Virus record (IMG/VR): IMGVR_UViG_3300034180_000047
Coordinates: 1-44,361 of that record
DNA from: a virus
Strand: one strand, 5' to 3'
Length of the DNA stretch: 44,361 bases
The position numbers and the translations under genes are program-made. Under the pieces are notes generated by a model. The model searched no databases and was not told the DNA's origin. It saw only the letters and a list, made by a program, of their open reading frames with translations. Shown here one piece after another: positions 14,510 to 38,957 of the stretch. Each line of letters begins with the position of its first letter. Positions within the stretch are counted from its first letter, which is position 1.

Positions 14510-14535
14510 TGTCATGATCACGGGTGCAATGTCGT
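14510..14535 (-). promoter_or_regulatory. Late-operon motif, copy A (head operon)
   Basis: A 26-bp sequence identical to that at 38932-38957, with core TTGCACCCGTGATCATGAC read leftward. It lies in the 57-bp gap between terminase large subunit and the first head gene; its CATGATCA core starts 32 nt from that start codon. No sigma-70 -10 hexamer is apparent, so a phage-directed activator or polymerase site is inferred. Confidence 0.7.
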
Positions 14536-14538
14536 GCG

Positions 14539-16107
14539 TCAGTAGTCCATCGGGTCGTAGGACGTCTTCACCCTCCGGCCGCGAGACTGCTGCTCGAAGT
14601 GGTCGTAGGCCGTGCGGGCTCGGGAACGCTCTGCAGCTTCCATCCGGCGGCGCATCTCTTCACGCTTGGACTTGCGGGACACAGGGCCCGCGAAGGTCAG
14701 GCAGAGGCCGTCGCCGCGGTTCGGGCTCGCCACCCCGCGGGACCGCATTTGGTCCTTCGTCTCGAGCTGGAAGACCGTCCGCTTGTTCCTGATGCGGTAC
14801 TCGAACTTGGGGGCGGTGAGCTCAGAGCGGAGCACCGGGTCTGAAGGGAGACAGCTGGGAAGCTTCTTCACCCACCTCGCCATTTCCGACCACATCTCGG
14901 AGCGTTTGTCGGCGTACCGATCCGGCTTGGAGGCGCGGCTGCCGAAGTCCACAGCGACACAGAGGTGACCCCAGCCGAGCTTCACCAGGTGGTCATAGGC
15001 GGAGGCGCCCTGCCCTCCGACGTCGACGAAGATGGTGTCGGGGAGTGGCTCGCCGTTCTCCTCCCGCTCGACCAAAATCTCTGCCACGCGGGTCGCCAGG
15101 TCGGGTCCGTCGAGGTTGCGCCACACCCTGGCTCGGAACGCAACGATTCCCTTCCTCCGCATCAGCGCAGCCTCGTCGTCTCCGAACCTCGATGGGTCTA
15201 GGCCCCAGATCTCCGGGTCGCCGGCGATGTTGCGGGGCTTCGTGTCACGCTTCTGAGCCTTGAGTACAAACGCCAGTCCGATGAGTTGGTCCGCGCCCTC
15301 TGGTGGGAACTCGCCCAGGACATTGACCATCACCCACGGGTTGTCTCGGCCTGGGTCCTCGCACAGAGCTCGAGCCCATTCGAGGGAGATGCGTGGAGAC
15401 CTCTTGGGGTCGTCCGGGTCTCCGGTGATGGTGATGAGGTGCCACTTGGCCGCCTCTGTCGTGCAGATGTGGTACAGCGCCCCGTGCACGTTGGTCGGGT
15501 TGCCCGCGACGATGAGGTGGTTGTCGACGTCGTTCGCAAAAATACCATCGGCCGCAGCGAGAACACCGAGCGGGTAGTCGCCCACCTCGTCGAGGATGAC
15601 CATGACGTGCCTGGCGTGAAACCCGGCGAGAACGTTGGCTTGAGCCTCTTTGTCAGCCTGCTGGCTGAAGGCACGCGCAGACACCCACCAGGTCCTCGGA
15701 CGGTCCCTGCTCTTGATGCGCTCTGCCTCGCAAATGAACGAGGCCTTCAAAAACTCGCTTTGCTCGTACCAGAAGGACAGCTCCTTCCACAGGTTGTCCT
15801 TCAGATTGTCCTTGGTGATCGAAAGGCAGACGATCTGCGAATCCTGCCGAGTCGAAAGAAACCACCACGCGATCCATGCCAGGCCGCAACTCTTACCTGG
15901 TCCTTTACAAGCCTTCATGGCGAGGCGAGGGTTGATCGGTGCGGCACGCAGTGCGTCGAGTTGCCACTCGTCTGGTTCTACTGGCTTCTCTGGGTCAGAC
16001 GGGTCGTGGAAGTTCTCGCAGACAAACGCGACCGGGTCGTCGTACCAGCGTTCCAAAGTCTCGATGGCGGCTTCGTCCTCCACCGACATCGCGGGAGCGT
16101 CGCTCAT
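14539..16107 (-). CDS. terL: Terminase large subunit
   Basis: 522 residues; start ATG 16107 overlaps the small-subunit stop as ATGA. ATPase domain: Walker A KGPGKS at 68-73, Walker B VMVILDEV with D173/E174, and the coupling segment VAGNPTN. Nuclease domain: GLDPSRFGDDEAAL and TIFVDVGGQGASAYDHL supply acidic metal-ligand candidates, with a third acidic region near DKRSEMW. The EYRIRNKRTVFQLETKDQMRSRG-type C-terminus is usual for podovirus TerL. It pumps DNA into the procapsid and cuts it. Confidence 0.93.
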   Translation of the reverse strand: MSDAPAMSVEDEAAIETLERWYDDPVAFVCENFHDPSDPEKPVEPDEWQLDALRAAPINPRLAMKACKGPGKSCGLAWIAWWFLSTRQDSQIVCLSITKDNLKDNLWKELSFWYEQSEFLKASFICEAERIKSRDRPRTWWVSARAFSQQADKEAQANVLAGFHARHVMVILDEVGDYPLGVLAAADGIFANDVDNHLIVAGNPTNVHGALYHICTTEAAKWHLITITGDPDDPKRSPRISLEWARALCEDPGRDNPWVMVNVLGEFPPEGADQLIGLAFVLKAQKRDTKPRNIAGDPEIWGLDPSRFGDDEAALMRRKGIVAFRARVWRNLDGPDLATRVAEILVEREENGEPLPDTIFVDVGGQGASAYDHLVKLGWGHLCVAVDFGSRASKPDRYADKRSEMWSEMARWVKKLPSCLPSDPVLRSELTAPKFEYRIRNKRTVFQLETKDQMRSRGVASPNRGDGLCLTFAGPVSRKSKREEMRRRMEAAERSRARTAYDHFEQQSRGRRVKTSYDPMDY

Positions 16108-16643
16108 TTGGAGATCAGCCGCCTGCGGTGTACCTCGGCGAGCAGGTCTGACAGCGAGGACTGTTTCTGCTCGTTGTCTCTGGCGTAGCCACCGAGGTGT
16201 TTCATGAGCTGGTCGGAGGCAGTCGTCTTCCGCTCGAATTTGATCTTCGTGATTGTGGTACGGATGACCTGGTCCTCGTCGCTCGCGTCGACCGCCTCGT
16301 GCACTTCGTACCCGGCCACCACCAGGCGGAGCTCCTCGGGCCAGTCCATGATGTGCTTCAACGATCCGTCTTCCTTGAACATCTCCTTCGGGTCAGCCTT
16401 GCGGATCTGCTCGAGCGTGCCGACGGTGGCCTCGATGGAGGCGCCGGTTGCCTCTTCTGCTTTGCTGCGGATGTTGTCGATGAGGGACTTGACCTCAACG
16501 TTTTCCAACAGCCGAGGCCCTTGGCTGTACGCGGTGCGAGATGAGTAGCCGGCGTCCTTGGCGGCTTGAGTCGCGTTTCCGCCGTTCTCCACGTAGAGGT
16601 AGCAGAACAGTCGTTGCTGTGGTGTCGTTCGTTTCCGTGCCAC
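16104..16643 (-). CDS. terS: Terminase small subunit
   Basis: 179 residues from GTG 16643 (VARKRTTPQQ), the start that places the conserved N-terminal HTH correctly; an upstream in-frame ATG at 16703 would overlap the late motif and the HTH gene. Residues 1-60 form a helix-turn-helix: TPQQRLFCYLYVENGGNATQ, AAKDAGYSSRTAYSQG, RLLENVEVKSLI, the usual TerS DNA-binding domain. A central coiled segment and a C-terminal basic region follow. It recognises the packaging start site and recruits TerL. Confidence 0.87.
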   Translation of the reverse strand: MARKRTTPQQRLFCYLYVENGGNATQAAKDAGYSSRTAYSQGPRLLENVEVKSLIDNIRSKAEEATGASIEATVGTLEQIRKADPKEMFKEDGSLKHIMDWPEELRLVVAGYEVHEAVDASDEDQVIRTTITKIKFERKTTASDQLMKHLGGYARDNEQKQSSLSDLLAEVHRRRLISK

Positions 16644-16654
16644 GGAGTATTGTC

Positions 16655-16930
16655 CTACTCGCGTCGGCGACGCGTCATGATCATGGGTGCAGTCTCGAGC
16701 CATGACCTGTGGTCCACGCCGAACTCGTCCTCGATGCGGGTCGCGGAAGCGAGGCTCGGGACACTCCGACCATAGAGCCAGCGCCACACAGTCTCACTTT
16801 CTACACCAATGAGCTCGCCGGCGGCCTCGAGCGTCAGGCCACTTTCACGCAGGACGCGTTGGAGATCGTTGCCGCCTACCGTCCTGACACGACGCCGTTT
16901 CTTCACCGTACCGCTTGGTGATCGCGTCAT
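16655..16930 (-). CDS. HTH protein of the XRE/Cro type
   Basis: 91 residues from ATG 16930 overlapping the resolvase stop as ATGA. Basic N-terminus (TVKKRRRVR), then an HTH: LQRVLRESGLTLEAAGELIG-VESETVWRWLYGRSVPSLASATRIEDEFG. It is the last gene of the replication block, and its 3' end overlaps late motif copy B just before terminase. A role as switch from replication to late expression is possible but unproven; it is a natural candidate for binding the late motif. Confidence 0.72.
   Translation of the reverse strand: MTRSPSGTVKKRRRVRTVGGNDLQRVLRESGLTLEAAGELIGVESETVWRWLYGRSVPSLASATRIEDEFGVDHRSWLETAPMIMTRRRRE
16674..16697 (-). promoter_or_regulatory. Late-operon motif, copy B (terminase)
   Basis: Matches copies A and C at 21 of 24 aligned bases. 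It contains the perfect palindrome CATGATCATG. It lies inside the 3' end of the HTH gene, with CATGATCA starting 33 nt from the GTG of the terminase small subunit. The three mismatches, within another gene's coding sequence, fit a functional site kept under dual constraint. Confidence 0.65.
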
Positions 16931-17493
16931 TGCTTCCACGCGAACGTGAGGCTCCCGGACCTGGCTTCGTGATCTCCGGTGTGGCCCTCCCCGAGGATGC
17001 ACCGGACGGGCTCGCCGAGCGGACCATCTTCTGCACCGGCGCCGCACACAGGATCCCGTAGCCCTGGCGATGCTAGACTAGGCCAGAAACCAGGGGCCTC
17101 GAGGAATACCTCCACCCTCGGGTTGTCGTGGTCGTAGAGCGGCGGCGTGAACCGGCCTCCGCAGTATTTGTCTGCCGTGCCGCGGCCTCGACCACGAGGG
17201 CGATAGAAAATCGCGTCGCACACAGCCTTGCGGACGTTCTCCGGGTCCGGGTGGTGCCCGTTGAGGAAGTAGGCCTCGGTGACGACGACGAGCGGTCTGT
17301 CCTTCGTCGCCGAGATCTGGTCGAGGTCGACGCCGGCCTCGGCGGCACATCGACGAACGTGACGCAGGTACTCGTGATAGGCCTTCTTCCGTTTCCAGTC
17401 TGGCCTCGCACCGAGAACGTAGAAACCAACAGGCTTCCCTGGAACGGTAAACCGCCAGAGCTCGTGGTAGGCCTCTGCCGGGACACCCGTCAC
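16927..17493 (-). CDS. RusA-family Holliday junction resolvase
   Basis: 188 residues from GTG 17493 (GTGA overlap with the initiator gene). The start is WRFTVPGKPVGFYV; the key motif HHPDPENVRKAVCDAIFY carries the D-x-x-N-x-x-K-x-x-x-D pattern of RusA, preceded by PLVVVTEAYF and followed by DNPRVEVFLE. A Cys-containing C-terminal extension (CGAGAEDGPLGEPVRCILGEGHTGDHE) is unusual for RusA and resembles a small metal-binding knuckle. It resolves branched DNA before packaging. Confidence 0.82.
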   Translation of the reverse strand: MTGVPAEAYHELWRFTVPGKPVGFYVLGARPDWKRKKAYHEYLRHVRRCAAEAGVDLDQISATKDRPLVVVTEAYFLNGHHPDPENVRKAVCDAIFYRPRGRGRGTADKYCGGRFTPPLYDHDNPRVEVFLEAPGFWPSLASPGLRDPVCGAGAEDGPLGEPVRCILGEGHTGDHEARSGSLTFAWKQ

Positions 17494-18434
17494 CCGGTGG
17501 CCTCCAGGGCAAGCCCGAGGTCGAGCTGCTGCACGAGGCCGGCGCAGAGCTTGGCGATAGCCCTGTCGTGCCGTGGTTCTTCGACGCGCTTCTGCCGGAC
17601 TGGCGCAATCGGTGGTCTGGATCCATTCCCGGCCCCACGAACCCTCAGGAGCCACGAAGAGAGCAATCCGGCGTTTGGCCGGGGAACCCGCAGCGTCGCC
17701 TCGAGGGCACCCTTTACCTCTGCGGGGGAGAATGGCGAGGCGTCTCGCAGGCCTTTGCGCCACTTGGACGGAACCCCATCGGTGCCAAACCGCCGCTTCG
17801 AAGGCCAGTCATTCCGCACAGCCTCGTCGATAGCCTCGAACTCCACCGTCCTGCTGCCGCTGTCCCCGGCAAGGTGGCCAAGCCGACCTGGAAGTGCGTT
17901 GCGATTTGCACTGCCGGTTGGTTTTGGAGTTGGAGTTGGAGTTGGAGTTGGAGTTGGAGCATTGCCGTCGCATGCGGGTCGCACTGCGGTCGCATGCGAG
18001 TCGCATTGCGGTCGCATGCGGGTCGCATCGCAGAGCGGGCAACCATCCACCGGAGATCCGTGCTTTCCGTCGTTGTGCCAACGAGTTAGAGCGTTGGCCC
18101 TCGCGGAGTCGGTCCGCTGAGAGGCACCGGAGACGAACGGCTGCCAGTCTGCCCAGTCGTGGATTTGCAGGCCACCGTCGCCTACTCGGTCGAGCAGCTG
18201 CAAATCGAGTAGCAAATCGACGAGCTCGCCAATTCCGCACTCAGGCCTCGCGTCCTCGACGATGAGCTCCAGGTCCTCGAGCTCGAGGTTGGTCAAGCGG
18301 CCGTCCGTCCTCGACTCGGAACAGAACGACCACAGGTCCTCGAGCGCGAGGACTCCTCCTGGACCGACACGCCGGAGCAGCTTCCGCCGCTTCGGGTGCG
18401 TCCGCCAACTCGCATCCACACGGAAATCTGACAT
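17490..18434 (-). CDS. Replication initiator / replisome organiser with internal iterons
   Basis: 314 residues; ATG 18434 with GGAGGG upstream. The N-terminal winged-helix-like region (SWRTHPKRRKLLRRVGPGG ... LVDLLLDLQLLDRVGDGGLQIHDWADWQPF) resembles phage replisome organisers and DnaD-type initiators. The centre is low complexity: a Thr-Pro repeat (TPTPTPTPTP) next to a Cys/His/Arg-rich part encoded by six 11-bp direct repeats. The C-terminal 130 residues contain WPSKRRFGTDGVPSKWRKGL and are helical. No ATPase motif is present, so it probably marks the origin and recruits the host helicase. Confidence 0.7.
   Translation of the reverse strand: MSDFRVDASWRTHPKRRKLLRRVGPGGVLALEDLWSFCSESRTDGRLTNLELEDLELIVEDARPECGIGELVDLLLDLQLLDRVGDGGLQIHDWADWQPFVSGASQRTDSARANALTRWHNDGKHGSPVDGCPLCDATRMRPQCDSHATAVRPACDGNAPTPTPTPTPTPKPTGSANRNALPGRLGHLAGDSGSRTVEFEAIDEAVRNDWPSKRRFGTDGVPSKWRKGLRDASPFSPAEVKGALEATLRVPRPNAGLLSSWLLRVRGAGNGSRPPIAPVRQKRVEEPRHDRAIAKLCAGLVQQLDLGLALEATG
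17924..17959. repeat. Hexanucleotide repeat TTGGAG x6
   Basis: Six exact tandem copies of TTGGAG, encoding the Thr-Pro linker on the opposite strand. The run is in frame (6 bp), so length changes would alter only linker length. It sits directly beside the iteron array. Confidence 0.95.
17968..18033. repeat. Six 11-bp direct repeats (putative replication origin iterons)
   Basis: Six consecutive 11-bp units of the form TCGCA(T/C)(G/T/C)CG(G/A)G, alternating so that pairs form three 22-bp units. Odd units contain the palindrome GCATGC. The period equals about one helical turn and is not a multiple of three, so the repeats are not selected as protein repeats. Iterons inside the initiator gene recall the lambda O gene. 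Confidence 0.8.
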
Positions 18435-18451
18435 TCTTGCCCTCCGATGCA

Positions 18452-18473
18452 GGAATATCCTGTGGGATATTTC
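18452..18473. promoter_or_regulatory. AT-rich inverted repeat in front of initiator gene
   Basis: GGAATATCC and GGATATTTC (8 of 9 pairs) separated by TGTG, in the 50-bp gap between the small beta-protein gene and the initiator start at 18434. AT-rich against a GC-rich background. It could be an operator for an initiator-gene promoter or a weak hairpin in the leftward transcript. Confidence 0.5.
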
Positions 18474-18484
18474 TCGCGCGCTCC

Positions 18485-18709
18485 TCAGTCCTTCGCGTCT
18501 CCCATCACCACCACCGCGCCGTCGAGAGCTCGGTTGTGCCTCACCAAGACATCGTCATCGACCGGCTCGAGCAGGATCCTCCGGCTCTCTGGCATCACGT
18601 CGACCACACGCCACACCACCTGCTCAACCCCGCTTCCGACGCCTTCAATCTTCAGGGTCGCACCACGCCAGGCGGTTATCCGTCGACGGAACCGTGGTTT
18701 GAATGACAT
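18485..18709 (-). CDS. Small beta-rich protein, copy 2 of a tandem pair
   Basis: 74 residues from ATG 18709 with GGGAGGGGAC upstream. Sequence TAWRGATLKIEGV...VVWRVVDVMPESRRILLEPVDDD matches the neighbouring upstream gene in its order of motifs (GATL-hh-G, WRV-x-x-h, R-hhL-x-P). This suggests a small SH3/KOW-like barrel. No known function; perhaps nucleic-acid binding, judging by the two adjacent copies in a replication block. Confidence 0.62.
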   Translation of the reverse strand: MSFKPRFRRRITAWRGATLKIEGVGSGVEQVVWRVVDVMPESRRILLEPVDDDVLVRHNRALDGAVVVMGDAKD

Positions 18710-18711
18710 CT

Positions 18712-18948
18712 CTACCGTCCCCTCCCTACTGGGACGAGAATCGTTGGCGGGTGCAGGTCCTCGACGATCTTCACCGACGGGTCGGCGGGCACGAGACTCA
18801 CACGACCTCGGCCGGTGTTGATGTGTGATACACGCCACGGGATGCCCTCGAGGCCAACGACCTCGAGCGTCGCACCAACCCTCACCCGCACACGGAGGAC
18901 CTTCTTGCCGTCGTCTGACGCCGGCGTCGGCTCTCTGACATCGTCCAT
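18712..18948 (-). CDS. Small beta-rich protein, copy 1 of a tandem pair
   Basis: 78 residues from ATG 18948 with GGGAGG upstream; the A of the start overlaps the methyltransferase stop. Core: VRVRVGATLEVVGLEGIPWRVSHINTGRGRVSLVPADP. It shares GATL, WRV and a basic strand ending in Pro with the next gene two bases downstream, so the two look like diverged duplicates. Acidic N-terminus and a hydrophobic C-terminal strand (TILVPVGRGR). Confidence 0.62.
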   Translation of the reverse strand: MDDVREPTPASDDGKKVLRVRVRVGATLEVVGLEGIPWRVSHINTGRGRVSLVPADPSVKIVEDLHPPTILVPVGRGR

Positions 18949-19547
18949 TACGCCTCCCACCATTCCACTTCCGTGGGTCCGTTGAAGGTTCCAGGCCGCC
19001 TGACGTCGACGACCACGAAGTCCGTCCTCGCACCCTTGAAGCCTCCTCGACTGATGAGATGCGCCAGATGGGCCAGGTCGCAGCTCGCCCAAAGACACGC
19101 ACACGCGTCGCGGGTGTGCATGTCCCCAGCCCGAAGGATGGACACGACCTGCGGTGCGAACTCGAGGGCGTGCGAGACGTGGTGCGGCCCGACACCGCCG
19201 TCGAGCGGCGGGTTCATGAGCACCGCGTCGAAGTCGTGCGGTCCGTGCGCATCGATTTCCATGAAGTCGCCAACCCGTACGGCGAGCGACTTGTCGAGAA
19301 ACCTCTCGGAGAGATACCTCACCCACCGGCCATCGATCTCGACGGCCTGCACGAGCTCGACCAGTTGCAGCGTCCTGAACGCTGCATCGACGAGGGTGCC
19401 GCCGCCGGCCGACGGCTCGAGCACCCGCCGTGTCTCTGGCGGGAGGAGATTCGCCATCTGCCGCGCGATCGACGGCGGAGTGTGGTACTGCGAGAGCTCC
19501 GTCAGGAACTCTGGCGCGAAGTCTCCCAACGGCAGCTGCGCGCTCAT
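18948..19547 (-). CDS. DNA N6-adenine methyltransferase
   Basis: 199 residues from ATG 19547. SAM-binding motif I is VLEPSAGGGTLV (42-53), preceded by the target-facing YHTPPSIARQMANLL typical of gamma-class enzymes. Motif IV is MNPPLDGG (111-118), an NPPL variant of the usual NPP(F/Y/W): the aromatic residue that stacks on the flipped adenine is Leu here. The C-terminus (KGARTDFVVVDVR) completes the Rossmann-like sheet. Orphan, with no restriction nuclease beside it; it could protect phage DNA, or be weakly active because of the Leu. Confidence 0.78.
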   Translation of the reverse strand: MSAQLPLGDFAPEFLTELSQYHTPPSIARQMANLLPPETRRVLEPSAGGGTLVDAAFRTLQLVELVQAVEIDGRWVRYLSERFLDKSLAVRVGDFMEIDAHGPHDFDAVLMNPPLDGGVGPHHVSHALEFAPQVVSILRAGDMHTRDACACLWASCDLAHLAHLISRGGFKGARTDFVVVDVRRPGTFNGPTEVEWWEA

Positions 19548-19557
19548 CTCGCCGGAC

Positions 19558-19938
19558 CTAGATGCCCAAAACGTCGTGGACGATGGTCGAGAAAATGAGG
19601 TCCTTCACCTTCTGGTCTACCGGAAGTTCATCGTAGGGCACCATGCACGGATGCTCCTTCGTCTCCGGATTCTTCGTCGGCCCGTACCTCCAGCCGTCGG
19701 CCTTCTTGTGCTCGAGCCATTTCTCATGCGATCGACTCCGAGGCGCTGAAGGGTCGAGAACGATTGCCATCACACCGGCCAAGCACGATTCACGCTGCCA
19801 CGCTGGCGCCTCGTCCCAGGGAGCTTGGGTTTCGTCACCTAGAGCTCCGCAGTAGAGCCTGTTGACCTCGTGCGCCGTGCGCGCCGCTAGTTCGATCTTT
19901 TCAACAGATTGATCGTGGAACATCTCCATCTCGCTCAC
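19558..19938 (-). CDS. RyR-domain protein
   Basis: 126 residues from ATG 19938. The second half carries the RyR repeat pattern: SHEKWLEHKKADGWRYGPTK, then KEHPCMVPYDELPVDQKVKD, ending in a helix IFSTIVHDVLGI. RyR domains occur alone in many bacteria and phages and are thought to bind a small ligand, possibly a nucleotide derivative. The N-terminal helix (VEKIELAARTAHEVNRLYCGALGD) is also conserved in this group. Stop overlaps nothing; start overlaps the upstream stop as ATGA. Confidence 0.8.
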   Translation of the reverse strand: MSEMEMFHDQSVEKIELAARTAHEVNRLYCGALGDETQAPWDEAPAWQRESCLAGVMAIVLDPSAPRSRSHEKWLEHKKADGWRYGPTKNPETKEHPCMVPYDELPVDQKVKDLIFSTIVHDVLGI

Positions 19939-20219: not shown

Positions 20220-20290
20220 CTCACTCTCCTCTGGTCACCGTGAGGGCGTTGCTCGTGAGATTCGAAGGCTGGAAGATCGGGGGCATGCTT

Positions 20291-20524
20291 CTACCCACTT
20301 CCCCCCCATCTCTTGCTGGTTCGCTTTCTCTTGCCGAGCAGAGCTTGGTCGACGTCGATACGAAGTACACGACAGATGGATAGCAGTGTTGGAAGGCTGC
20401 ACCGCTGATGACCACCCTCGATGCGAGAAACCGTGACGCGGTGGACACCAAGCCTCTCGGCGAGCTGCGCCTGTGTCATCCCGTCGCCGATTCTTTTTTC
20501 CTTCACCAGCCTGCCGAGGTGCAT
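20291..20524 (-). CDS. XRE/Cro-like repressor, first gene of leftward operon
   Basis: 77 residues from ATG 20524. HTH: LGRLVKEKRIGDGMTQAQLAERLGVHRVTVSRIEGGHQ, then SLPTLLSICRVLRIDVDQALL. The predicted leftward promoter would start transcription at or beside this ATG, and no Shine-Dalgarno sequence is visible, so the message is probably leaderless. As the first gene behind an operator-controlled lytic promoter, it is more likely Cro-like than the prophage repressor. It overlaps no neighbour; 71 bp separate it from the next gene. Confidence 0.8.
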   Translation of the reverse strand: MHLGRLVKEKRIGDGMTQAQLAERLGVHRVTVSRIEGGHQRCSLPTLLSICRVLRIDVDQALLGKRKRTSKRWGGSG

Positions 20525-20530
20525 ATGCCA

Positions 20531-20558
20531 GTTGTAGCAGAATTGCTACGTCCGTCAA
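20531..20558 (-). promoter_or_regulatory. Leftward early promoter
   Basis: Leftward -35 TTGACG (20558-20553), 16-bp spacer, extended -10 TGCTACAAC. The -10 overlaps operator O1; the -35 lies between O1 and O2. The predicted start site is near 20524, the ATG of the XRE gene. Confidence 0.6.
20534..20549. promoter_or_regulatory. Operator O1
   Basis: Perfect inverted repeat GTAGCAGAATTGCTAC: 6-bp arms, 4-bp spacer. It covers the -10 of the leftward promoter. Best copy of a family of four. Confidence 0.75.
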
Positions 20559-20564
20559 CCGTTT

Positions 20565-20580
20565 GTAGCCTCCCTTCTAC
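20565..20580. promoter_or_regulatory. Operator O2
   Basis: GTAGCCTCCCTTCTAC: the same 16-bp form as O1 with arms matching at 4 of 6 pairs. It begins 31 bp from O1, about three helical turns, suited to cooperative binding. It lies upstream of the divergent regulator gene at 20605. Confidence 0.6.
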
Positions 20581-20604
20581 ACGACTCGAACTATCCCGCG
20601 GTGC

Positions 20605-21033
20605 ATGATGGGCTCGATGGTTGAACCACCGAGTAGAACGCGTCAGGAAAAACGCGTCGCGTCAATTGTTCGTGACCGAAGACAATCTCTCGGCCTCACG
20701 CAGGCTGGGCTTTCTGATGCAACCGGTATTCACCGGGTTACCATTGCCAGGATTGAGACCGGCAAGTACGGGAATCTCGGCTTGTCAACAGCACAACAGC
20801 TTGCACATACGTTGGGAATCTCGGTTGCCGAGCTTGTCCAGCCATATCGTGTAGAGAGCGGGGACTATTGGGCCGCCGAGTTCGAGTCATCGCCGTGGTG
20901 CGCAACGCTCAATCCAACCGAGGACGAACTTCAGTGGTTGCGGAACATCCCCGACTGGATTCTAGCTGGAGTACGAACGACCCCGGAGGCCATCGCGAAA
21001 CTCCTCATGTGGAGGCGCGAGAATCATGAGTGA
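20605..21033 (+). CDS. XRE-family regulator, likely prophage repressor
   Basis: 142 residues from ATG 20605; in-frame ATGs at 20608 and 20617 are possible and no clear ribosome site is seen. HTH: VRDRRQSLGLTQAGLSDATGIHRVTIARIETGKYGNLGLSTAQQLAHTLGISVAELV. The C-terminal 65 residues (DYWAAEFESSPW..., TEDELQWLRNIPDWILAGVRTTPEAIAKLLMWRR) are not a LexA-type peptidase, so induction would not be by RecA-stimulated self-cleavage. First gene of the block flanked by the operator pairs, hence the best repressor candidate. Confidence 0.75.
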   Translation: MMGSMVEPPSRTRQEKRVASIVRDRRQSLGLTQAGLSDATGIHRVTIARIETGKYGNLGLSTAQQLAHTLGISVAELVQPYRVESGDYWAAEFESSPWCATLNPTEDELQWLRNIPDWILAGVRTTPEAIAKLLMWRRENHE

Positions 21034-21304: not shown

Positions 21305-21503
21305 GCTCGACGCTCTTGTCGCCCTGGTGATTCTCTACATAGTTGCGATATTGAGGCTACTGATTTTTTTTGCCTGGGCGGTTGTGACCATCGCTGTTGG
21401 AGCTGTTGTTGTCCCAGTCCAGATGGCAGCGGAACACCCACGCATCAGCGTCCCGATATTGGTGGCGCTCGGAGGGTTGGCTGCTTTCGTGTTTTGGATG
21501 TAG
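21294..21503 (+). CDS. Small two-segment membrane protein
   Basis: 69 residues from ATG 21294, with GGGGGAAAAG upstream and an 11-bp overlap with the regulator. Nearly all hydrophobic: LVALVILYIVAILRLLIFFAWAVVTIAVGAVVVPV and ISVPILVALGGLAAFVFWM, so two or three membrane passes. Lysogeny-expressed membrane proteins beside repressors often act in superinfection exclusion; that is only a suggestion here. Its stop overlaps operator O3. Confidence 0.65.
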   Translation: MSRKLDALVALVILYIVAILRLLIFFAWAVVTIAVGAVVVPVQMAAEHPRISVPILVALGGLAAFVFWM

Positions 21504-21515
21504 TAGATTTGCTAC
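21500..21515. promoter_or_regulatory. Operator O3
   Basis: GTAGTAGATTTGCTAC: same arms and spacer as O1 with one arm mismatch. It overlaps the stop codon region of the small membrane protein gene and lies upstream of the rightward -35. Confidence 0.7.
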
Positions 21516-21521: not shown

Positions 21522-21550
21522 TTGACACGATGTAGCACGTTTGTTACTGT
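21522..21550 (+). promoter_or_regulatory. Rightward early promoter
   Basis: Consensus -35 TTGACA (21522-21527), exact 17-bp spacer, extended -10 TGTTACTGT (hexamer 21545-21550). The -35 lies between O3 and O4 and the -10 overlaps O4, mirroring the leftward promoter. It drives the early operon starting at 21577. Confidence 0.68.
21532..21547. promoter_or_regulatory. Operator O4
   Basis: GTAGCACGTTTGTTAC: the family 16-mer with one arm mismatch (TGTTAC for TGCTAC), covering the -10 of the rightward promoter. It starts 32 bp after O3, nearly the same as the O1-O2 spacing. Confidence 0.68.
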
Positions 21551-25207: not shown

Positions 25208-25472
25208 GGCGACGAAGCTGGTCATCGCAACGCTGGTCGCGCTATCGGCTGCAGCCGTGACGCTAGACATCTACTTCGTTTTCTCGTTCGATGTGAGCTC
25301 GGCGAGGTCGGCGCCGGCGCCCTCCATCGGCGAGCCGCACAACCATCCGCTGACGGTGACGCCGAGAAGTTCGCGCAGGCTGAGGTGGATTCTTCCATCG
25401 GTGGATCGGTCGACGTGCGTCTACTGCCATTCGCCTACCCGAGAGTCGAGCTCGAGACCGTGTGTCTCGTGA
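25200..25472 (+). CDS. Small membrane-anchored protein with CxxCH motif
   Basis: 90 residues from ATG 25200. One N-terminal membrane helix (LVIATLVALSAAAVTLDIYFVF), a Pro/Ser-rich linker, then CVYCHSPTRESSSRPCV, nearly the same knuckle as in the 26632 gene (CKYCHRTTEEGHSYPCV). It looks like a membrane-tethered version of the same putative zinc motif. Function unknown. Confidence 0.58.
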   Translation: MSEATKLVIATLVALSAAAVTLDIYFVFSFDVSSARSAPAPSIGEPHNHPLTVTPRSSRRLRWILPSVDRSTCVYCHSPTRESSSRPCVS

Positions 25473-25476
25473 GGTC

Positions 25477-26427
25477 ATGATGGGAGAGCACACCGGCATC
25501 GAATGGGCGCATCACACCCTGAACCTCTGGGTCGGGTGCTCGAAGGTGAACAAGCTGTGCCAGAACTGCTACGCTGAGCGGAGCACGTTCGCCAAGGTAC
25601 GCCGGGCAGACGGTATAGAGCTATGGGGCGCCAAGGCTGACCGTCGACTCGTCAGCGAGAAGACGGTCAACCAGGTTTACCGCTGGAACCAGGGGGCCCT
25701 CGAGGACGGCGAGCGTAGGCGGGTGTTCTGCTCCTCGCTGAGTGACATTCTCGAGGACAGACGCGACCTCGACCGGCCGAGATTCAATCTCTGGAAGATT
25801 GTCGAGGACTGCCAGGGACTCGACTTCCTGCTGCTGTCGAAGAGGCCGGAGAACTTCGCCAGGTTCACCCCGAGAAGCTGGCGAGATGGAAGCTGGCCCA
25901 GCAATGCCTGGGCTGGGACGAGTGCCGGCGACCAGGAAACAGCCGAAGACGCGATCCCGAAGCTGATCGACGCGGCCCGCATGGCGCCGGTGCTCTTTGT
26001 GAGCATCGAGCCGATGGTCGGTCCAATCGATTTTTCCGCCATCCGAATCCACGACGACGAGCTCGGAGCTCGGTGGAGAGTCCTCGAAGACGTTCTCTCG
26101 TGGGTGATCGCCGGAGGTGAAAGCGGACCGGACGCCAGGCCCATGCACCCTGACTGGCCGAGGTCAGTCCGCGACCAGTGCGTCGACGCCGGCGTGCCGT
26201 TTTTCTTCAAGCAGTGGGGTGGGTGGTCAGCAGTCTATGACCGCGATGTCGACGATCCAGACTGGGGCAGATGTGATGTCGTGCGAGACTCAACCCCGAG
26301 AGGTCGGTGGCTGAATTTGTCAGGCGGGCACGGGTTTCACGGGGACAGAGTTGTCAGGGTTGATCGGATTGGCAAGAAGGCTGCCGGCCGGGAGCTCGAT
26401 GGCCGCACCTGGGACCAAACGCCATGA
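25477..26427 (+). CDS. Phage Gp37/Gp68-family protein (DUF5131)
   Basis: 316 residues from ATG 25477 (GTG at 25462 also in frame). Family hallmarks: GIEWAHHTLNLWVGCSKVNKLCQNCYAE with three Cys (C-x6-C-x2-C), RRVFCSSLSDIL, LLLSKRPENFARF, AWAGTSAGDQ, VLFVSIEPMVGPID, WVIAGGESGPDARPMHPDW, and PFFFKQWGGW. The Cys cluster and barrel-like order suggest a distant relation to radical-SAM or photolyase-like enzymes. In many genomes this family pairs with TcmP (three-Cys-motif partner), which is absent here. Confidence 0.85.
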   Translation: MMGEHTGIEWAHHTLNLWVGCSKVNKLCQNCYAERSTFAKVRRADGIELWGAKADRRLVSEKTVNQVYRWNQGALEDGERRRVFCSSLSDILEDRRDLDRPRFNLWKIVEDCQGLDFLLLSKRPENFARFTPRSWRDGSWPSNAWAGTSAGDQETAEDAIPKLIDAARMAPVLFVSIEPMVGPIDFSAIRIHDDELGARWRVLEDVLSWVIAGGESGPDARPMHPDWPRSVRDQCVDAGVPFFFKQWGGWSAVYDRDVDDPDWGRCDVVRDSTPRGRWLNLSGGHGFHGDRVVRVDRIGKKAAGRELDGRTWDQTP

Positions 26428-27060: not shown

Positions 27061-27260
27061 GAAGCGTGCACGGGGGCACTGGCGACCTAGCCTACATCGA
27101 GCACGATGGAGTCATTCACGAGACCGACGACGCGCTACTCTACTCGATTGGCGGTGAGAAGGTGTGGATCCCGAAGTCGTGGATCAAAGACAAGAACGAC
27201 GAGATCATCGCCATCCCGAAGAAACTGGCAGACGAGAAGGGTCTCGAGAGCGACTGGTAG
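27057..27260 (+). CDS. Small protein with WIPKSWI motif
   Basis: 67 residues from GTG 27057, overlapping the upstream stop. Sequence ALLYSIGGEKVWIPKSWIKDKNDEIIAIPKKLADEKGL resembles short phage and plasmid domains that follow the pattern (AxLhxhxGExVWIPKSxI), seen alone or at the ends of DNA-processing proteins. Function unknown. It sits two bases before the integrase start. Confidence 0.62.
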   Translation: MRSVHGGTGDLAYIEHDGVIHETDDALLYSIGGEKVWIPKSWIKDKNDEIIAIPKKLADEKGLESDW

Positions 27261-27262
27261 GG

Positions 27263-28489
27263 ATGCCGTCAGACCGCACCACGCCCTACACGGCCCGCGA
27301 GGTCGCCGATCTCAGGCGATGCTCACTATCGACCGTGTATCGGTGGGTGGGGGACGGGAGTCTGCGTCCGCTGCGCAGGAAGCCAGGCGGCCCTTTGCTC
27401 TTCGCACCGTCCGTCGTAACCTCCTTCGCGGAGGTGGACGGTATGGGCGCACGTTTCCGCGAGGACAACGGGTGGTGGTACTGCGACTTCTGGGTGACGC
27501 ACCATGACGGGCGGAGAGAGCGCATACGTCGCTACCCGCCAGCCAACACACGCAAGTCCGCGCTCGAGCACGAGCGGAAGATCCGGGCGGAGATCGCCGC
27601 CGGGACATGGCGGCAAGCCGAGCCGCCCACCCTGCGCACGTTCGCGAAAGCGTTCATCGCGGACGCCAAGGCGCAGCTCAAGCCGTCGACGGTCCACGTC
27701 TACGAGGTCATGCTCGATCAGCACCTGTTGCCTCGTTGGGGCCGGCGGGTGCTGGACACGATCGGCCCTGCCGACATCGCGACGTTCAAGCAGGCACAAC
27801 TCGAAGCGGGCTCGTCGAAGAAGACGATCAACAACCAGCTCGCTCTGCTGTCGTCGATGCTGCGCCGCGCCGTCGAGTGGGGCGAGCTGCGACAGGCTCC
27901 GCGTGTCCAACTGTTCAAGCTGATGCGGGTCCAGGATCGCGAGTATCGCTGGCTTTCACGCACCGAGGCTGAAGCCGTGATCGAGGCTGCAACCGGATAC
28001 TGGCCAGCGGTGATCACCGTCGCGCTCCACACCGGGATGCGGCTCGGAGAGCTCCAGGCGCTGCGGTGGTCGGACGTGGATATGAAGCGCGGCAAGATCA
28101 CGGTTCGACGGTCGTACTGGAACGGCGAGATCGGGACGCCAAAGTCGGGCAAGGCGAGAGAGATCCCAATCAACCGTTCGTGCAGGCGCGCGCTCGAGAA
28201 TCACCCTCCCCTTCTGCGGTGCGAGCTCGTGTTCCACACTCGCAAGGGGTCTGTGATCAAGGCGCAGGACATGAGCAAGGGTCTGCGCCGGGTGTGCGTT
28301 GCCGCCGAGGTAGACCCGTTCGGGTGGCACGTGCTGCGGCACACGTTCGCCTCCTGGCTGGTCGAGCGGTCGGTACCGATCCGCACGGTCCAGATGCTCC
28401 TCGGACATTCGACGGTCGCAGTCACCGAGAGATACGCACACGTCGCGCCGGCCTCCGGACTCGATGCTGTGGCAGTGCTGGAGGGATGA
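27263..28489 (+). CDS. int: Tyrosine integrase with fused N-terminal excisionase-like HTH
   Basis: 408 residues from ATG 27263. Residues about 9-50 form an HTH_17/MerR-like DNA-binding domain (YTAREVADLRRCSLSTVYRWVGDGSLRPLRRKPGGPLLF), normally found in separate excisionases. Then comes an AP2-like arm-binding part (WWYCDFWVTHHDGRRERIRRYP), a core-binding domain, and the catalytic domain with R260 (HTGMRLGE), the K of TPKSGKAREI, H356-x-x-R359, H382 and nucleophile Y391. No separate xis gene was found nearby. It inserts the phage at the attachment site downstream. Confidence 0.93.
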   Translation: MPSDRTTPYTAREVADLRRCSLSTVYRWVGDGSLRPLRRKPGGPLLFAPSVVTSFAEVDGMGARFREDNGWWYCDFWVTHHDGRRERIRRYPPANTRKSALEHERKIRAEIAAGTWRQAEPPTLRTFAKAFIADAKAQLKPSTVHVYEVMLDQHLLPRWGRRVLDTIGPADIATFKQAQLEAGSSKKTINNQLALLSSMLRRAVEWGELRQAPRVQLFKLMRVQDREYRWLSRTEAEAVIEAATGYWPAVITVALHTGMRLGELQALRWSDVDMKRGKITVRRSYWNGEIGTPKSGKAREIPINRSCRRALENHPPLLRCELVFHTRKGSVIKAQDMSKGLRRVCVAAEVDPFGWHVLRHTFASWLVERSVPIRTVQMLLGHSTVAVTERYAHVAPASGLDAVAVLEG

Positions 28490-32945: not shown

Positions 32946-32950
32946 AGGAC

Positions 32951-33460: not shown

Positions 33461-33490
33461 AACTCCCACCCGGCTAGAACTCCCACCCGG
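33457..33490. repeat. Exact 17-bp tandem duplication at the operon meeting point
   Basis: CTAGAACTCCCACCCGG occurs twice end to end. CTAG contains TAG on both strands: the first copy stops the rightward gene, the second stops the leftward amidase. No terminator hairpin separates the converging operons. Confidence 0.95.
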
Positions 33491-34270: not shown

Positions 34271-34890
34271 GCCGCGACGGAGGCCCGCGGAGGGTCCGCG
34301 CGGGCGGCCTTCACGGCCGGCAACACCGTCTCGATCTTCCTGTCGATGATGCCCTTCGCGATGTCGAGACCACGAGCCCCGTCCGGAACCGCACCGGAAG
34401 ATTGTAGCCGTCCGAGTGCGGCGTCGAGGAGGTCCTTGACCATCGTGTCCTTCAGCTCCTTCAGGCGATTTTCGTACTCCTCCTTCGACACCTTCCCGTC
34501 AGCCAAGTCGGCCTTCAGGCCAGCGACGGTCACCTGCGCGGCGTGCCCAACGTAGTCGAAGACGACGCCGGTCAACCACGTCAGGGCCGACGCGGCGGTC
34601 TCGTTCTTCACCCGCTGGCGGATCGCCTTGCCCGTCGAGGACTTCAACCAGGCTGCCGCGGTAGTGAGGAGGGTGATGATCGCGATCAGGAGCGGCGGTA
34701 GGTATTCCTGGACGAGCGGCGACAGTCCGCCGGCGTCCGGCACAGCGGCGGCGGCCGCGGCCGTCTCCTGCGCGAACGCCGCGCCGGCGATCAACAGAGC
34801 CGCCCACAAGACGACCACGCCGGCGAGCAGCGGGAGAGCTCGGCGGATCCCCTCCTTCAACGAGATGAGAATGAGGCTTCGGGTCTTCAT
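34267..34890 (-). CDS. Holin-like membrane protein (LLH-type layout)
   Basis: 207 residues from ATG 34890. Hydrophobic segments at about 17-40 (LPLLAGVVVLWAALLIAGAAFA, with a signal-like AFAQE end) and 65-83 (LPPLLIAIITLLTTAAAWL), followed by a charged helical C-terminal region (KNETAASALTWLTG..., YENRLKELKDTMVKDLLDAALG). LLH-family holins have this one-helix-plus-coil arrangement, but the signal-like end is unusual. It should open the inner membrane for the endolysin. Confidence 0.62.
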   Translation of the reverse strand: MKTRSLILISLKEGIRRALPLLAGVVVLWAALLIAGAAFAQETAAAAAAVPDAGGLSPLVQEYLPPLLIAIITLLTTAAAWLKSSTGKAIRQRVKNETAASALTWLTGVVFDYVGHAAQVTVAGLKADLADGKVSKEEYENRLKELKDTMVKDLLDAALGRLQSSGAVPDGARGLDIAKGIIDRKIETVLPAVKAARADPPRASVAA

Positions 34891-35189
34891 GAGTTCCTCC
34901 TCAGTTTTTCAATTCCCTCGGAGATGTGCTTGGTTGTCTGGTAGTGCTCGTTGCGGAGAGCGTCTATTCGGGTGGAGTCGATCTCCGCCTTGCGGGACGC
35001 GGCAAGTAGCTCTTCCTGACCTCTCTTGAGCTCATCGAGTTGCGCGCCGAACGCCTTGAAGTCAGGCGAAACATCGGACTGCCGCGGCCAACGCCTCGCT
35101 ACGAACTCGCCGAAGGCCTTCACACTGACGATTGCGACCGCCAGGATGAGGGTCGAGATCGTGATCTCTCCTTCGGGGATCGGAGGCAC
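34887..35189 (-). CDS. Membrane-anchored coiled-coil protein
   Basis: 100 residues from GTG 35189 (TAGTG overlap). One membrane helix near 10-28 (ISTLILAVAIVSVKAFGEFVA), then a coiled coil (FGAQLDELKRGQEELLAASRKAEIDSTRIDALRNEHYQTTKHISEGIEKL). Topology resembles an inner-membrane spanin component or a second holin. Its stop overlaps the holin start. Confidence 0.6.
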   Translation of the reverse strand: MPPIPEGEITISTLILAVAIVSVKAFGEFVARRWPRQSDVSPDFKAFGAQLDELKRGQEELLAASRKAEIDSTRIDALRNEHYQTTKHISEGIEKLRRNS

Positions 35190-35509
35190 TACGGAATCTG
35201 CTCCAGGATCTTGGCACCGACGGGAAGGTCGGTTGAAGCAACTGTTCTGTTACCCTTGCAGCGGACCCTGAACTCGTCCGGTCCGTCCTGGCGGATCCTT
35301 CGCGTGTAGCAGCGGACCACGTCGCCACGGTCACCGGACCACCCGCCGTCGGCGATGTACATGTCTGCGTACGCTGCCGCTCGTGCTCCTGTGATGACCA
35401 CCTCGTCTGACGGCTCGTCGTGGAAGTAGACGTAGCTGCTAGCTGCGAGAGCTGTCCCGCAGAGTGCAGACACCACTCCGACAACGAAGCCTGCGAAGGC
35501 CTTCTTCAT
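35189..35509 (-). CDS. Small exported protein
   Basis: 106 residues from ATG 35509. Typical signal peptide (MKKAFAGFVVGVVSALCGTALA, cleavage after ALA-A), then a small beta-rich domain with two Cys (VVRCYTRRI, RVRCKG) able to form a disulfide in the periplasm. Its place beside lysis genes suggests a role in the cell envelope; no family recognised. Confidence 0.62.
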   Translation of the reverse strand: MKKAFAGFVVGVVSALCGTALAASSYVYFHDEPSDEVVITGARAAAYADMYIADGGWSGDRGDVVRCYTRRIRQDGPDEFRVRCKGNRTVASTDLPVGAKILEQIP

Positions 35510-35523
35510 TGGTGATCCCCTCC

Positions 35524-36480
35524 TTACGGCGTCCAGTAGCAGATCGCTACTGTCGCCTGCCCAGCAGAAACCGACGTGTAGTCGGCGTTGGTGGTGACAG
35601 TCACGGTCACGGTCGCGGCGGCAGTGTGGTGGACCGTTCCGGACGGGGCTCCGAGATACACTCCTCCTGCGGCAGCAGTGAACACACTCGGGGTTCCTGT
35701 GTTGTATCGGTCGACGTCCGTGCCGTCGCCGAATTGTATCGTGGCGCTCACGTCGCCAGTGAAGCCGGGATTGAGCGTGTGGAGGATCGCTTGCTGCACC
35801 ACGGCCCCAATCGGGATCTGTTCGGTCATGGTGAATGTGCCGCTCGCTCCACCCCCGTCTACCATGTCATCGTAGGCGAACGTTTCGTTGATGCAGCCGA
35901 GACCACCGCCGTCGCCGCCCAACGCCAAACGGTTCCAGCGAAGCGAATTGAATTGGCCTATATCGGTCTCGTCTGACGATTGCATGAAAATGGTCGGATC
36001 TGTCTGCTGCGTGTGGCCGAAATCGGTCGTGTAGTCGACATAATCCATGACCAGCATATGCCTTCCGGATGTGCCAAGGAGAAGAGCGGGGACTGTTATT
36101 GTCTGTGCTCCAGCGCCCATCTGCAAACCGCCAGATGTTGAGGCGTAACGCATGATCACGCTAGCCCCGACATTCATGACGCCGGCAAACTGCACAGCGG
36201 AATCGAAATAAGCAATGCCGTCGACTTCGAGGTCGCCGATACACCCACCATCACCAGTCCCAAGACTGTGACTCGTCGTCTGAGCACCACACAGTTGAGC
36301 CATTCCGGTTGAGTCGGTGATGTAATTGCCAGCGAGGTCGATGTCAGAGGATACCGTCCCCGACCCGTCCACTGCAGAGATGCCAGGTACCGCGTCGAAC
36401 GCCGGGCTCAGCGGGTCGTAGGAAAGCGCCCTGGCTGGCGCGGCGAGAATGGCGATAGCAACGAGAACTCGGCGCAGCAT
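35524..36480 (-). CDS. Beta-rich exported or fibre-like protein
   Basis: 318 residues from ATG 36480. It begins with a signal-like segment (MLRRVLVAIAILAAPARALS). The body is Gly/Thr/Ser/Asp-rich beta-structure (DIDLAGNYITDSTGMAQLCG, GIAYFDSAVQFAG, TITVPALLLGTSGRHML, TVTVTVTTNADYTS) as in trimeric fibres. It lies in the tail-fibre operon and may be a receptor-binding or fibre-tip subunit. A Sec signal on such a protein is unusual. Confidence 0.6.
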   Translation of the reverse strand: MLRRVLVAIAILAAPARALSYDPLSPAFDAVPGISAVDGSGTVSSDIDLAGNYITDSTGMAQLCGAQTTSHSLGTGDGGCIGDLEVDGIAYFDSAVQFAGVMNVGASVIMRYASTSGGLQMGAGAQTITVPALLLGTSGRHMLVMDYVDYTTDFGHTQQTDPTIFMQSSDETDIGQFNSLRWNRLALGGDGGGLGCINETFAYDDMVDGGGASGTFTMTEQIPIGAVVQQAILHTLNPGFTGDVSATIQFGDGTDVDRYNTGTPSVFTAAAGGVYLGAPSGTVHHTAAATVTVTVTTNADYTSVSAGQATVAICYWTP

Positions 36481-36489
36481 GGATTCCTC

Positions 36490-36999
36490 CTACCCGGACG
36501 TGCCGCCGTAGATGTTGGCGTCGATCGTGTCTGAGGCCGACCCCCCGGTGAACGTGAACGTGCAGGTCGCGTCAGGGGATCCGAGCGTCACGTACCTGAA
36601 GATCTGACGCTTCGGGGTCGTTTCGTCTGACGGGTTCCAGAAAAGAGGGCCGGCCTCGCAGTTGTAGCGGGTGTTACTCGCGTCCCAAACGCACGCCGGG
36701 ATGCGGTACGTCGGTCCGCCTTCGTACTGCTGGCCATAGCAGTCGACCTGGACGCCGGTCTCGGAGTTGTCCGCGTCGGTGATAGTCACCCAGATGATGA
36801 TCACGTCGTATCCGGTGAGGTCGTCGCCGCCGATCGCCAGAGACCGCTGAGCGGCCAGCGTCTGTCCCGAGATCGTCTCGCCCGACGCACCGAACCGCTT
36901 GAGAGCGAGCAGGCCGGCGTTCGCAGGCGTCGGCACGACCAGAGAGACGACCGCAAACGCGGCGAGGAACGCAACCAATCGCGCGAAGGACTTCTTCAT
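36490..36999 (-). CDS. Small exported beta-rich protein
   Basis: 169 residues from ATG 36999, ATGA overlap with the fibre gene. Signal peptide MKKSFARLVAFLAAFAVVSLVVPTPANA, then beta-rich sequence with three pairs of Cys (QVDCYG, PACVWD, YNCEAG, ATCTFTF). Disulfide bonding outside the cytoplasm is likely. Function unknown; perhaps a tail-associated or host-surface protein. Confidence 0.6.
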   Translation of the reverse strand: MKKSFARLVAFLAAFAVVSLVVPTPANAGLLALKRFGASGETISGQTLAAQRSLAIGGDDLTGYDVIIIWVTITDADNSETGVQVDCYGQQYEGGPTYRIPACVWDASNTRYNCEAGPLFWNPSDETTPKRQIFRYVTLGSPDATCTFTFTGGSASDTIDANIYGGTSG

Positions 37000-38903
37000 T
37001 GCTCGCTCCACGGCGCCACGCAGCGCCAGTAGTTCTCGTCCACCTGCTCCTGGAGCGCTTCCACCTGGGCGGTCAGCTCCTGGATCGCCTTCATCTGCAG
37101 AAGCACCAGCTCAGACGTCGCTATCGTCTTGGTACCGTCCTGGCGCTCGGATACAGCCTGGGGCCAATGCGGCTCGACCTCCTGGGCGACTAGCCCAAGG
37201 TCGACGTGGCCCTTCTCTTTGTCGCGCCAGTCGAACTGGCGGACTGGTATGGCGTTCACCGTCTCGAGCGCGTTCACGCGAGATGGCGCGATGTTCATCT
37301 TGAGCCGGGCGTCGGACGGACACACGAAGGCGATGGTCGTCGCGTTCGTGTTCTCGATAGTGCAGATCGAGTTTCCGTCTCCGTCGGCGAGGTCGAAGTA
37401 GACGTTCGTCGCCCCTCCAGCTGACGGCGTGTCCGTACCGACCCACATAAGGACGCCCTGGCGTGTTGCCGCGTTGCCGTCGTTCTGAATCCAGATCACA
37501 GGTAATGTGCCGTCGTCCGCGTAGAAGTAGGAGTTCGCAGAAGCCGTCCCGCCGACCTCGAACTCGTAGGCTGCCTGCACGCAGTCGGTCCCCGCGATGT
37601 CCACGCACTGGGTGTCGTCGATAAAGATCCCGGGCCCACCGGTGTTGCCGATGGTGATGTCACCCTTCGTCGCGTGGGAGGTCGACTCGATGGTCAGCGA
37701 ATTGCCAGAGGCCTCGCCACCGTAGAGCGTGCCGGCCACCAGGTCAACGCCTACGTAGACGTCTCCGACGACGTTGGTGTCGCCGTTCACATCGAGCTCG
37801 TAGCTCGGCGTGACGTCGAGGATTCCGACACGGCTGTTTACCTCGTCGACGACCATCACGTCTGACGCTCCGAACTCGATGCGCCCCTTTGTGGCGTGGC
37901 TCGTCGACTGGATCGTGAGGTCCTCGCCGGATCCGTCGCCCCCGTAGATCCACCCATCGACGTAGACGGAGTTGCCGAAATACGCCATTCCGCTGACTCC
38001 GACCTCGAGTGCATAGGAGGGGGTGGCGGTCAGGATCCCGACGCGGTCGTTCGTCTCATCGACGACGAGCGTCGTCGTGTCGAAGATCACCTTCCCTTTC
38101 GTCGCGTTGCTCGTCGACTGGATGGTCAGGTTTCCGGACGCTGACGTCGATCCGTAAAGTGTACCGACGGCGTAGACGTTTCCAGTCGCCCGGATATCTC
38201 CGGTCACGTCGAGTGTGTAGCTCGGTGTCGTGTCCATGATCCCAACGAGATTGGTGAGCTCGTCGACCGTCAGAGTGTCGGCGACGTAGACCTTTCCCTT
38301 CAGCGTCGGGTAGATCGTGGAATAGAGGCTGAGATTTTGTAGTTGGTATGTTCCACCGTAGATGTACTGGCCGCCTGTCCGACCATTCTTGTGGACGTAC
38401 ATCTCGTGGTCGTCGAAGCTCGAGATGTGGTCTGAGATCGCTTGCGCGGTGTCCTCCGACTGTGACACGCCGGACAGCGCCTCCTGGACGAGCCACGTCA
38501 ACTTGTCGAGCGCCGTCTCGAGCACAGATGGGAGGTACCGACCTTGCGTCCTCAGGCTCGTCGCCTGGGTCCTCGGCGTATCCCTGGTGATTTTGATCTG
38601 GTAGTCGCTCGTGATCGGGTTGGTCGTCGTGACCGTCCCGCCCTCCGCGCCCACCCGCTCGACCGTGTAGTCGACGTCCTCGACCAGCGTCGCCTCGGCC
38701 TGCGTTGCGATCGTGATCTGGACGACGGACAGGTCGCCGGAAGCGATCCACCCAAAAGGTACGGTGAACTCGGTACCTCCCGAGCCCGTGTAGGTCACCG
38801 TCGTGGTGGTGTTCGCAACCGTCGCCTCGGCGGTGTGTGGGGTGGCGACCAGGGCCGCCACCGCCAACACACCAACCAAACCGGGAAGGACGTGCCGTCG
38901 CAT
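36996..38903 (-). CDS. Tail fibre protein with repeats and S74 chaperone domain
   Basis: 635 residues from ATG 38903, CAGGTGA upstream. A signal-like start (LPGLVGVLAVAALVATPHTAEA) precedes a T7-fibre-like N-terminal domain (FTVPFGWIASGDLSVVQI..., VEDVDYTVERVGAEGG, LETALDKLTWLVQEAL). Residues about 200-420 hold near-repeats of the form LTIxSTSxATKG...VVDExNxRVGILxxTPSYxLDVxG. The C-terminus has the S74 domain (DARLKMNIAPSRVNALE...VDLGLVAQEVE) with coiled-coil end; its catalytic Ser is in the preceding turn and is cut off autocatalytically. It binds the host receptor. Confidence 0.82.
   Translation of the reverse strand: MRRHVLPGLVGVLAVAALVATPHTAEATVANTTTTVTYTGSGGTEFTVPFGWIASGDLSVVQITIATQAEATLVEDVDYTVERVGAEGGTVTTTNPITSDYQIKITRDTPRTQATSLRTQGRYLPSVLETALDKLTWLVQEALSGVSQSEDTAQAISDHISSFDDHEMYVHKNGRTGGQYIYGGTYQLQNLSLYSTIYPTLKGKVYVADTLTVDELTNLVGIMDTTPSYTLDVTGDIRATGNVYAVGTLYGSTSASGNLTIQSTSNATKGKVIFDTTTLVVDETNDRVGILTATPSYALEVGVSGMAYFGNSVYVDGWIYGGDGSGEDLTIQSTSHATKGRIEFGASDVMVVDEVNSRVGILDVTPSYELDVNGDTNVVGDVYVGVDLVAGTLYGGEASGNSLTIESTSHATKGDITIGNTGGPGIFIDDTQCVDIAGTDCVQAAYEFEVGGTASANSYFYADDGTLPVIWIQNDGNAATRQGVLMWVGTDTPSAGGATNVYFDLADGDGNSICTIENTNATTIAFVCPSDARLKMNIAPSRVNALETVNAIPVRQFDWRDKEKGHVDLGLVAQEVEPHWPQAVSERQDGTKTIATSELVLLQMKAIQELTAQVEALQEQVDENYWRCVAPWSEQ
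37660..38290. repeat. Tandem ~210-220 bp fibre-gene repeats
   Basis: Three clear copies (and a weaker fourth) of a ~70-residue unit in the fibre gene, recognisable in DNA by CTCGTCGACTGGAT-like stretches near 37695, 37900 and 38110. Unequal recombination could shorten or lengthen the fibre. Confidence 0.75.
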
Positions 38904-38931
38904 GCCCGAGCGTCACCTGGGCCGCCCGGGC

Positions 38932-38957
38932 TGTCATGATCACGGGTGCAATGTCGT
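38932..38957 (-). promoter_or_regulatory. Late-operon motif, copy C (tail fibre)
   Basis: 26 bp identical to copy A. It lies in the 77-bp gap between the HicA-like and tail-fibre genes, with CATGATCA starting 32 nt from the fibre start codon. Confidence 0.7.

Follow-up and report, generated by a model that had tools for sequence, protein, structure and literature searches.

A shared 20-base site before three late gene blocks of an uncultured epsilon15-like podovirus, a candidate activator-dependent late control element

In the late regulons of phages P2 (activator Ogr) and Mu (activator C), several late promoters with a common site are served by one activator, the P2 site being a dyad near -55. 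In epsilon15 (Uetakevirus), repressor sites are annotated at 12-27, 2931-2947 and 19895-19911, before terS, gp3 and the tailspike gene; these operators are palindromic (ATTACC-N5-GGTAAT), occur also at the immunity switch, and lie at no constant distance from the start codons. The systems of the Gram-positive phage late activators RinA, Ltr and TP901-1 Alt have direct repeats farther upstream and mostly a single late promoter. That activator genes can lie next to late promoters and ahead of packaging genes is already known, and the repeats bound by Ltr in staphylococcal Phi13 fall within the 3'-terminal part of ltr itself (PMC13123087). In cluster K mycobacteriophages, the start-associated sequences belong to non-structural genes, carry AGGAG and are found 3-7 bp from the start codon (PMC3203893). 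In the literature consulted, we found no experimental account of how late genes are turned on in epsilon15-like temperate podoviruses without their own polymerase.

The DNA analyzed here (the window, meaning the whole stretch at its full length) is the complete 44,361-base virus record IMGVR_UViG_3300034180_000047 from IMG/VR. Judged by its portal (phrog_332), TerL, TerS, head protein and tail-nozzle genes, the phage is an uncultured temperate podovirus of the epsilon15/BPP-1-like group, with ~30-40% identity to its closest named relatives in these proteins. Late genes run leftward from terS through terL, a 64-aa gp3-like open reading frame (ORF), portal, protease and head to tail, followed by a giant gene at the record ends, two small ORFs, the tail fibre gene and the lysis genes. 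The genes referred to below are as follows (L009 is a related contig).

12564-14276, minus strand: portal (head-tail adaptor), phrog_332, E = 1e-130
14287-14481, minus strand: gp3-like ORF, 64 aa, first gene past copy A; its gp3-like counterpart in L009 is 53% identical
14539-16107, minus strand: terminase large subunit (terL), phrog_2
16104-16643, minus strand: terminase small subunit (terS), PF03592, 1.3e-26
16655-16930, minus strand: XRE-type helix-turn-helix (HTH) protein, 91 aa, candidate reader of the site, with a homolog beside the site in L009 (E = 4e-10, 39%)
20291-20524, minus strand, and 20605-21033, plus strand: cI/Cro-like divergent HTH genes
27164-28489: integrase
34169-33474 and 34890-34267: Amidase_2 and holin-like lysis genes past the tail fibre
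36996-38903, minus strand: tail fibre protein, phrog_1640, first gene past copy C

Long open minus-strand frames occupy both record ends (1-3380 and 39838-44361), the right-end frame matching positions 928-2205 of the 2231-aa phrog_9880, and a giant virion gene thus seems to be split by the ends of the record. Joining the ends directly interrupts the frame, and a few bases may therefore be missing from the record. Two small ORFs (38981-39709) separate the giant gene from copy C; the related contig L269 lacks both, and they may have been inserted as a pair. The first of them looked HicB-like by eye, with no match in a Pfam search. Three 22-bp direct repeats GCATTGCGGTCGCATGCGGGTC at 17959-18028, beside six TTGGAG repeats and within an ORF at 18434-17490 on the minus strand, may be origin iterons lying within a replication gene. 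Many Gordonia and Mycobacterium phages are among the best phage matches of a DUF5131 protein (25462-26427; 4.5e-68), which hints weakly at an actinobacterial host.

On the minus strand, the 20-letter site TTGCACCCGTGATCATGACA was found at 14529-14510 (copy A) and 38951-38932 (copy C), and a 17/20 match to it at 16692-16673 (copy B).

14510-14535, minus strand: copy A (ACGACATTGCACCCGTGATCATGACA), 3 nt past the terL stop codon
16673-16692, minus strand: copy B (CTGCACCCATGATCATGACG), within the 3'-terminal part of the HTH gene
38932-38957, minus strand: copy C, sharing a 26-bp identity with copy A

The first-pass annotation had described the identity between 14510-14535 and 38932-38957, together with a variant near 16674-16697, and both are as it described them. 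Across the whole record, TTGCACCCGTGATCATGACA occurred with ≤3 mismatches in exactly three places, all on the minus strand as had been claimed (0.00 expected from 100 dinucleotide-preserving shuffles), and a weight-matrix scan located no further copies, the next-best place scoring 14.4 versus 35-39 for the three sites. The sites precede terS (copy B), gp3-portal (copy A) and tail fibre-lysis (copy C); protein matches for the portal, the fibre and terS/terL agree with the earlier placement of the copies before terminase, head and tail fibre blocks. With start codons at ATG 14481 (copy A), GTG 16643 (terS, copy B) and ATG 38903 (copy C), the reported motif-to-start spacing of 32, 33 and 32 nt holds as well. 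Only a core of 8-10 bp in the site is palindromic, the rest being asymmetric.

The site ends 3' in ATGACR, a 4-5/6 match to TTGACA resembling a -35 element, and a -10-like hexamer follows in each region.

14515-14510, minus strand: -35-like ATGACA, copy A
14487-14492, minus strand: -10-like GACGCT, copy A, 17 nt past ATGACA and 5 nt before ATG 14481
16678-16673, minus strand: -35-like ATGACG, copy B
16649-16654, minus strand: -10-like GACAAT, copy B, 18 nt past ATGACG, 5 nt before GTG 16643 and directly past the HTH stop codon
38937-38932, minus strand: -35-like ATGACA, copy C
38909-38914, minus strand: -10-like GACGCT, copy C, 17 nt past ATGACA and 5 nt before ATG 38903

The earlier statement that no -10 hexamer is present was therefore mistaken, as a GACNNT hexamer ends 5 nt before the start codon in three of three regions. 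When the regions were aligned on their start codons, an A as second base and a T as sixth base coincided in all three at only one of 24 offsets; at that offset before 1589 start-like codons, NANNNT occurred in 3.1% and GACNNT in 0.6%. The combined arrangement (≥4/6 of TTGACA, 16-18 nt, then NANNNT 4-9 nt before the start) was present at all three sites and in L009, versus 1.6% of start-like codons. These -10-like hexamers are weak (copies A and C match TATAAT at 2/6 positions; the -10 evidence in L009 is weak), which explains why a standard promoter/terminator scan missed all three promoters. Near the switch, the early promoter of the phage itself (TTGACA at 21522-21527, 17 nt, TACTGT) indicates that a spacing of 17-18 nt suits the polymerase of its host. 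Shine-Dalgarno duplexes at the three late genes are weak or misplaced (-4.5 to -5.6 kcal/mol, versus -8 to -12 for many other genes), and the base before the start codon is C in all three, the preferred -1 base in mycobacterial leaderless mRNAs (PMC4633059). Taken with GACNNT 5 nt before the start, these features suggest that the late transcripts may have little or no leader; a partial Shine-Dalgarno ~9-10 nt from the start codon at the tail fibre gene and terS speaks against it.

To find the site elsewhere, viral contigs were scanned for exact matches to its 17-mer, which returned 16 stretches and identified L009 (IMGVR_UViG_3300032053_009784), an independent viral contig. L009 carries TTGCACCCGTGATCATGAC unchanged, its site having 19 bases identical to copies A and C, in the order HTH homolog, TTGCACCCGTGATCATGACT, terS, terL, gp3-like ORF and portal, which is the order around copy B. 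Proteins of the two phages are 41% (portal), 53% (gp3) and 39% (HTH; E = 4e-10) identical, their TerS proteins give no significant alignment, and the DNA flanking the site does not align. The reading frame across the site also differs between L009 and the window; together with the unalignable flanks, this indicates that the DNA itself is conserved, and it rules out conservation of a peptide encoded by the HTH tail. L009 is the one independent relative with the site, which it has before terS only; no second copy was seen at its terL-gp3 junction. Its conservation there is the strongest support for a sequence-specific DNA-binding partner, and its position beside an HTH homolog puts the neighboring HTH protein first among the candidates. 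The remaining exact 17-mer matches look like unrelated chance matches, several of them in coding sequence.

The site is not common across the family, since the relatives gathered by portal or TerL homology lack it, L009 excepted. The suggested search for the motif in related phages thus succeeded in L009, at terS and with the HTH gene, and found it missing from most distant relatives. In L266, L267 and L269 (portals 51-56% identical), no site was present in the junctions covered by their contigs, which exclude the terS regions. In L267 a different gene replaces gp3 before the portal, without the motif. L269, which shares 63% identity across most of the giant protein, has its tail fibre gene shortly past the giant gene with little space, and neither the motif nor the two small ORFs occur in that interval. 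The regulon may be missing in these three phages or rest on another site. When the terS-terL and terL-portal regions of 171 relatives were compared without presupposing a motif, the window ranked near the top and the epsilon15-type and phiV10-type phages had shared sequences of their own; the other lineages gave no convincing shared sequence in those regions. Exact copies of TGTGACATGTCACG occur on either strand in phiV10-like phages (three per record in G1099-G1101, two in phiV10; L029 2261-2274 and 19492-19505; L083 6419 and 8683), at late junctions by terS, by terL and, in phiV10, at the end of the long virion gene. They lie beside terminators, do not occur at the switch, and differ from the ATTACC operator.

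The late control element is real, and it would most likely be an activator-dependent promoter module read by the neighboring HTH protein. Profile searches with this protein matched only the general HTH_31/HTH_3 (Pfam) and repressor/regulator-type PHROGs, with no match to known late-activator families in Pfam or PHROGs. Its structure model is of low confidence (pLDDT 59), a search with both HTH proteins (window and L009) found no third family member, and structure prediction for the 92-aa ORF before copy C gave no HTH. We consider it moderately probable that the site is the control site of three weak, HTH-activated late promoters with leaderless starts. ATGACR would serve as a weak -35, with a weak GACNNT -10 17-18 bp on, directly upstream of the start codon, and transcription would begin at or next to that codon, giving leaderless or near-leaderless late mRNAs. 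The conserved upstream half, TGCACCCRTGATC, would be bound by a phage protein that touches RNA polymerase over the -35, as class II activators do. The likely binder, the 91-aa XRE-type HTH protein encoded immediately ahead of terS, with copy B at the end of its gene, would be made from the leftward operon and would turn on terS-terL, gp3-portal-head-tail and tail fibre-lysis together. Promoter activity, the leaderless start, activation over repression and the identity of the binding protein are all points that we infer from sequence. Of the initial proposal, a late promoter or activator site is accordingly the best-supported reading, as L009 keeps the order of site, HTH gene and terS, with activation the conditional part; the HTH protein beside copy B is likewise backed as reader by the homologous gene beside the L009 site, its identity as the binder being presumptive.

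Could the site instead be a repressor operator that silences the late operons in the prophage, as in epsilon15? Repressor sites of epsilon15 occupy the same three junctions, the best PHROGs of the HTH protein are repressors or regulators, and the site overlaps the -35-like element, so that a repressor could equally bind there and keep polymerase out. However, epsilon15 operators recur at the switch of that phage as palindromes, whereas the window site has no dyad beyond its short core and is missing from the window's own switch; weak core promoters, moreover, leave little to be gained by repression. We therefore regard repression as unlikely. That switch has a palindrome of another kind.

20534-20549, no strand assigned: switch operator GTAGCAGAATTGCTAC, between divergent HTH genes 20524-20291 (minus) and 20605-21033 (plus)

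The palindrome GTAGCANNNNTGCTAC (GTAGCAN4TGCTAC) occurs at 20534-20549, 20565-20580, 21500-21515 and 21532-21547, clustering at the divergent HTH pair and over the early promoter TTGACA-N17-TACTGT (21522-21550), and these are likely the switch operators. Upstream of the minus-strand gene at 35509 there is a GTAGCGATCTGCTAC with a shorter spacer. The late site as a cI operator was ruled out, the switch having GTAGCAN4TGCTAC and lacking the late motif. Asymmetry, a near-constant distance from the start codons and absence from the switch together imply a different regulator. Although sequence does not decide between activation and repression, activation is favored because the core promoters are weak and the HTH gene lies just before terS.

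A promoter used by a host sigma factor (alternative or housekeeping) with no phage regulator, in which polymerase would contact the conserved stretch, would fit the -35/-10-like spacing of 17-18 nt; it would also fit the negative result for a phage RNA polymerase, a gene that the first-pass annotation did not see either and that did not turn up among the subset of ORFs whose proteins were tested. This explanation is improbable, as a dozen positions ahead of the -35 vary little or not at all among four sites in two phages, which exceeds what sigma needs, and 1091 bacterial genomes from three phyla hold no exact match to the 18-mer, although host promoters of this kind would be expected there if the host belongs to one of those phyla. 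An RNA-level or translational leader element (such as a start-associated sequence), or a site for DNA packaging or replication, would account for the fixed distance to the start codons and for two of the three copies flanking the terminase genes. The site is too distant from the start for a ribosome site, lacks AGGAG and matches no Rfam family, and packaging leaves the copy before the tail fibre unexplained, making such a role very improbable.

The proposed activator-dependent late module can now be stated in terms of a defined site, exact promoter coordinates and one candidate protein, and the same site before three late blocks and beside an HTH gene in L009 suggests a switch for joint late-gene turn-on. 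The window and epsilon15 belong to the same lineage and both have a shared regulatory site before terS, gp3-portal and the tail spike or fibre, which supports these junctions as late-operon control points in the group and suggests that phages of the epsilon15-like group reuse them with different regulators. In contrast to the epsilon15 operators, the window site lacks symmetry, keeps almost the same spacing to each start codon and does not occur at the switch. Like the cluster K start-associated sequences, it is short, asymmetric, repeated and set a fixed number of bases ahead of start codons, but it ends ~29 nt from the start and has no AGGAG. With P2 Ogr and Mu C the window would share one activator for several late promoters, though the sites are expected to differ and the proteins to be unrelated. 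The likeness to RinA, Ltr and Alt lies in a small regulator gene directly before a late promoter and packaging genes, copy B overlapping the 3' end of the HTH gene, with the same arrangement in L009; the window differs in having three promoters with a single site each, and its XRE-type HTH protein has no Pfam or PHROGs match to those families. The late promoter idea is less new than first supposed, as the shared sites of epsilon15 and the known activator-promoter arrangements precede it. We tentatively propose an undescribed late regulon of epsilon15-like podoviruses, in which a 91-aa HTH protein and a 20-bp asymmetric site at the -35 of three leaderless promoters would replace the repressor operators of epsilon15. 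In its mode of action this element resembles the known phage late-activator systems, while being a member of no tested family.
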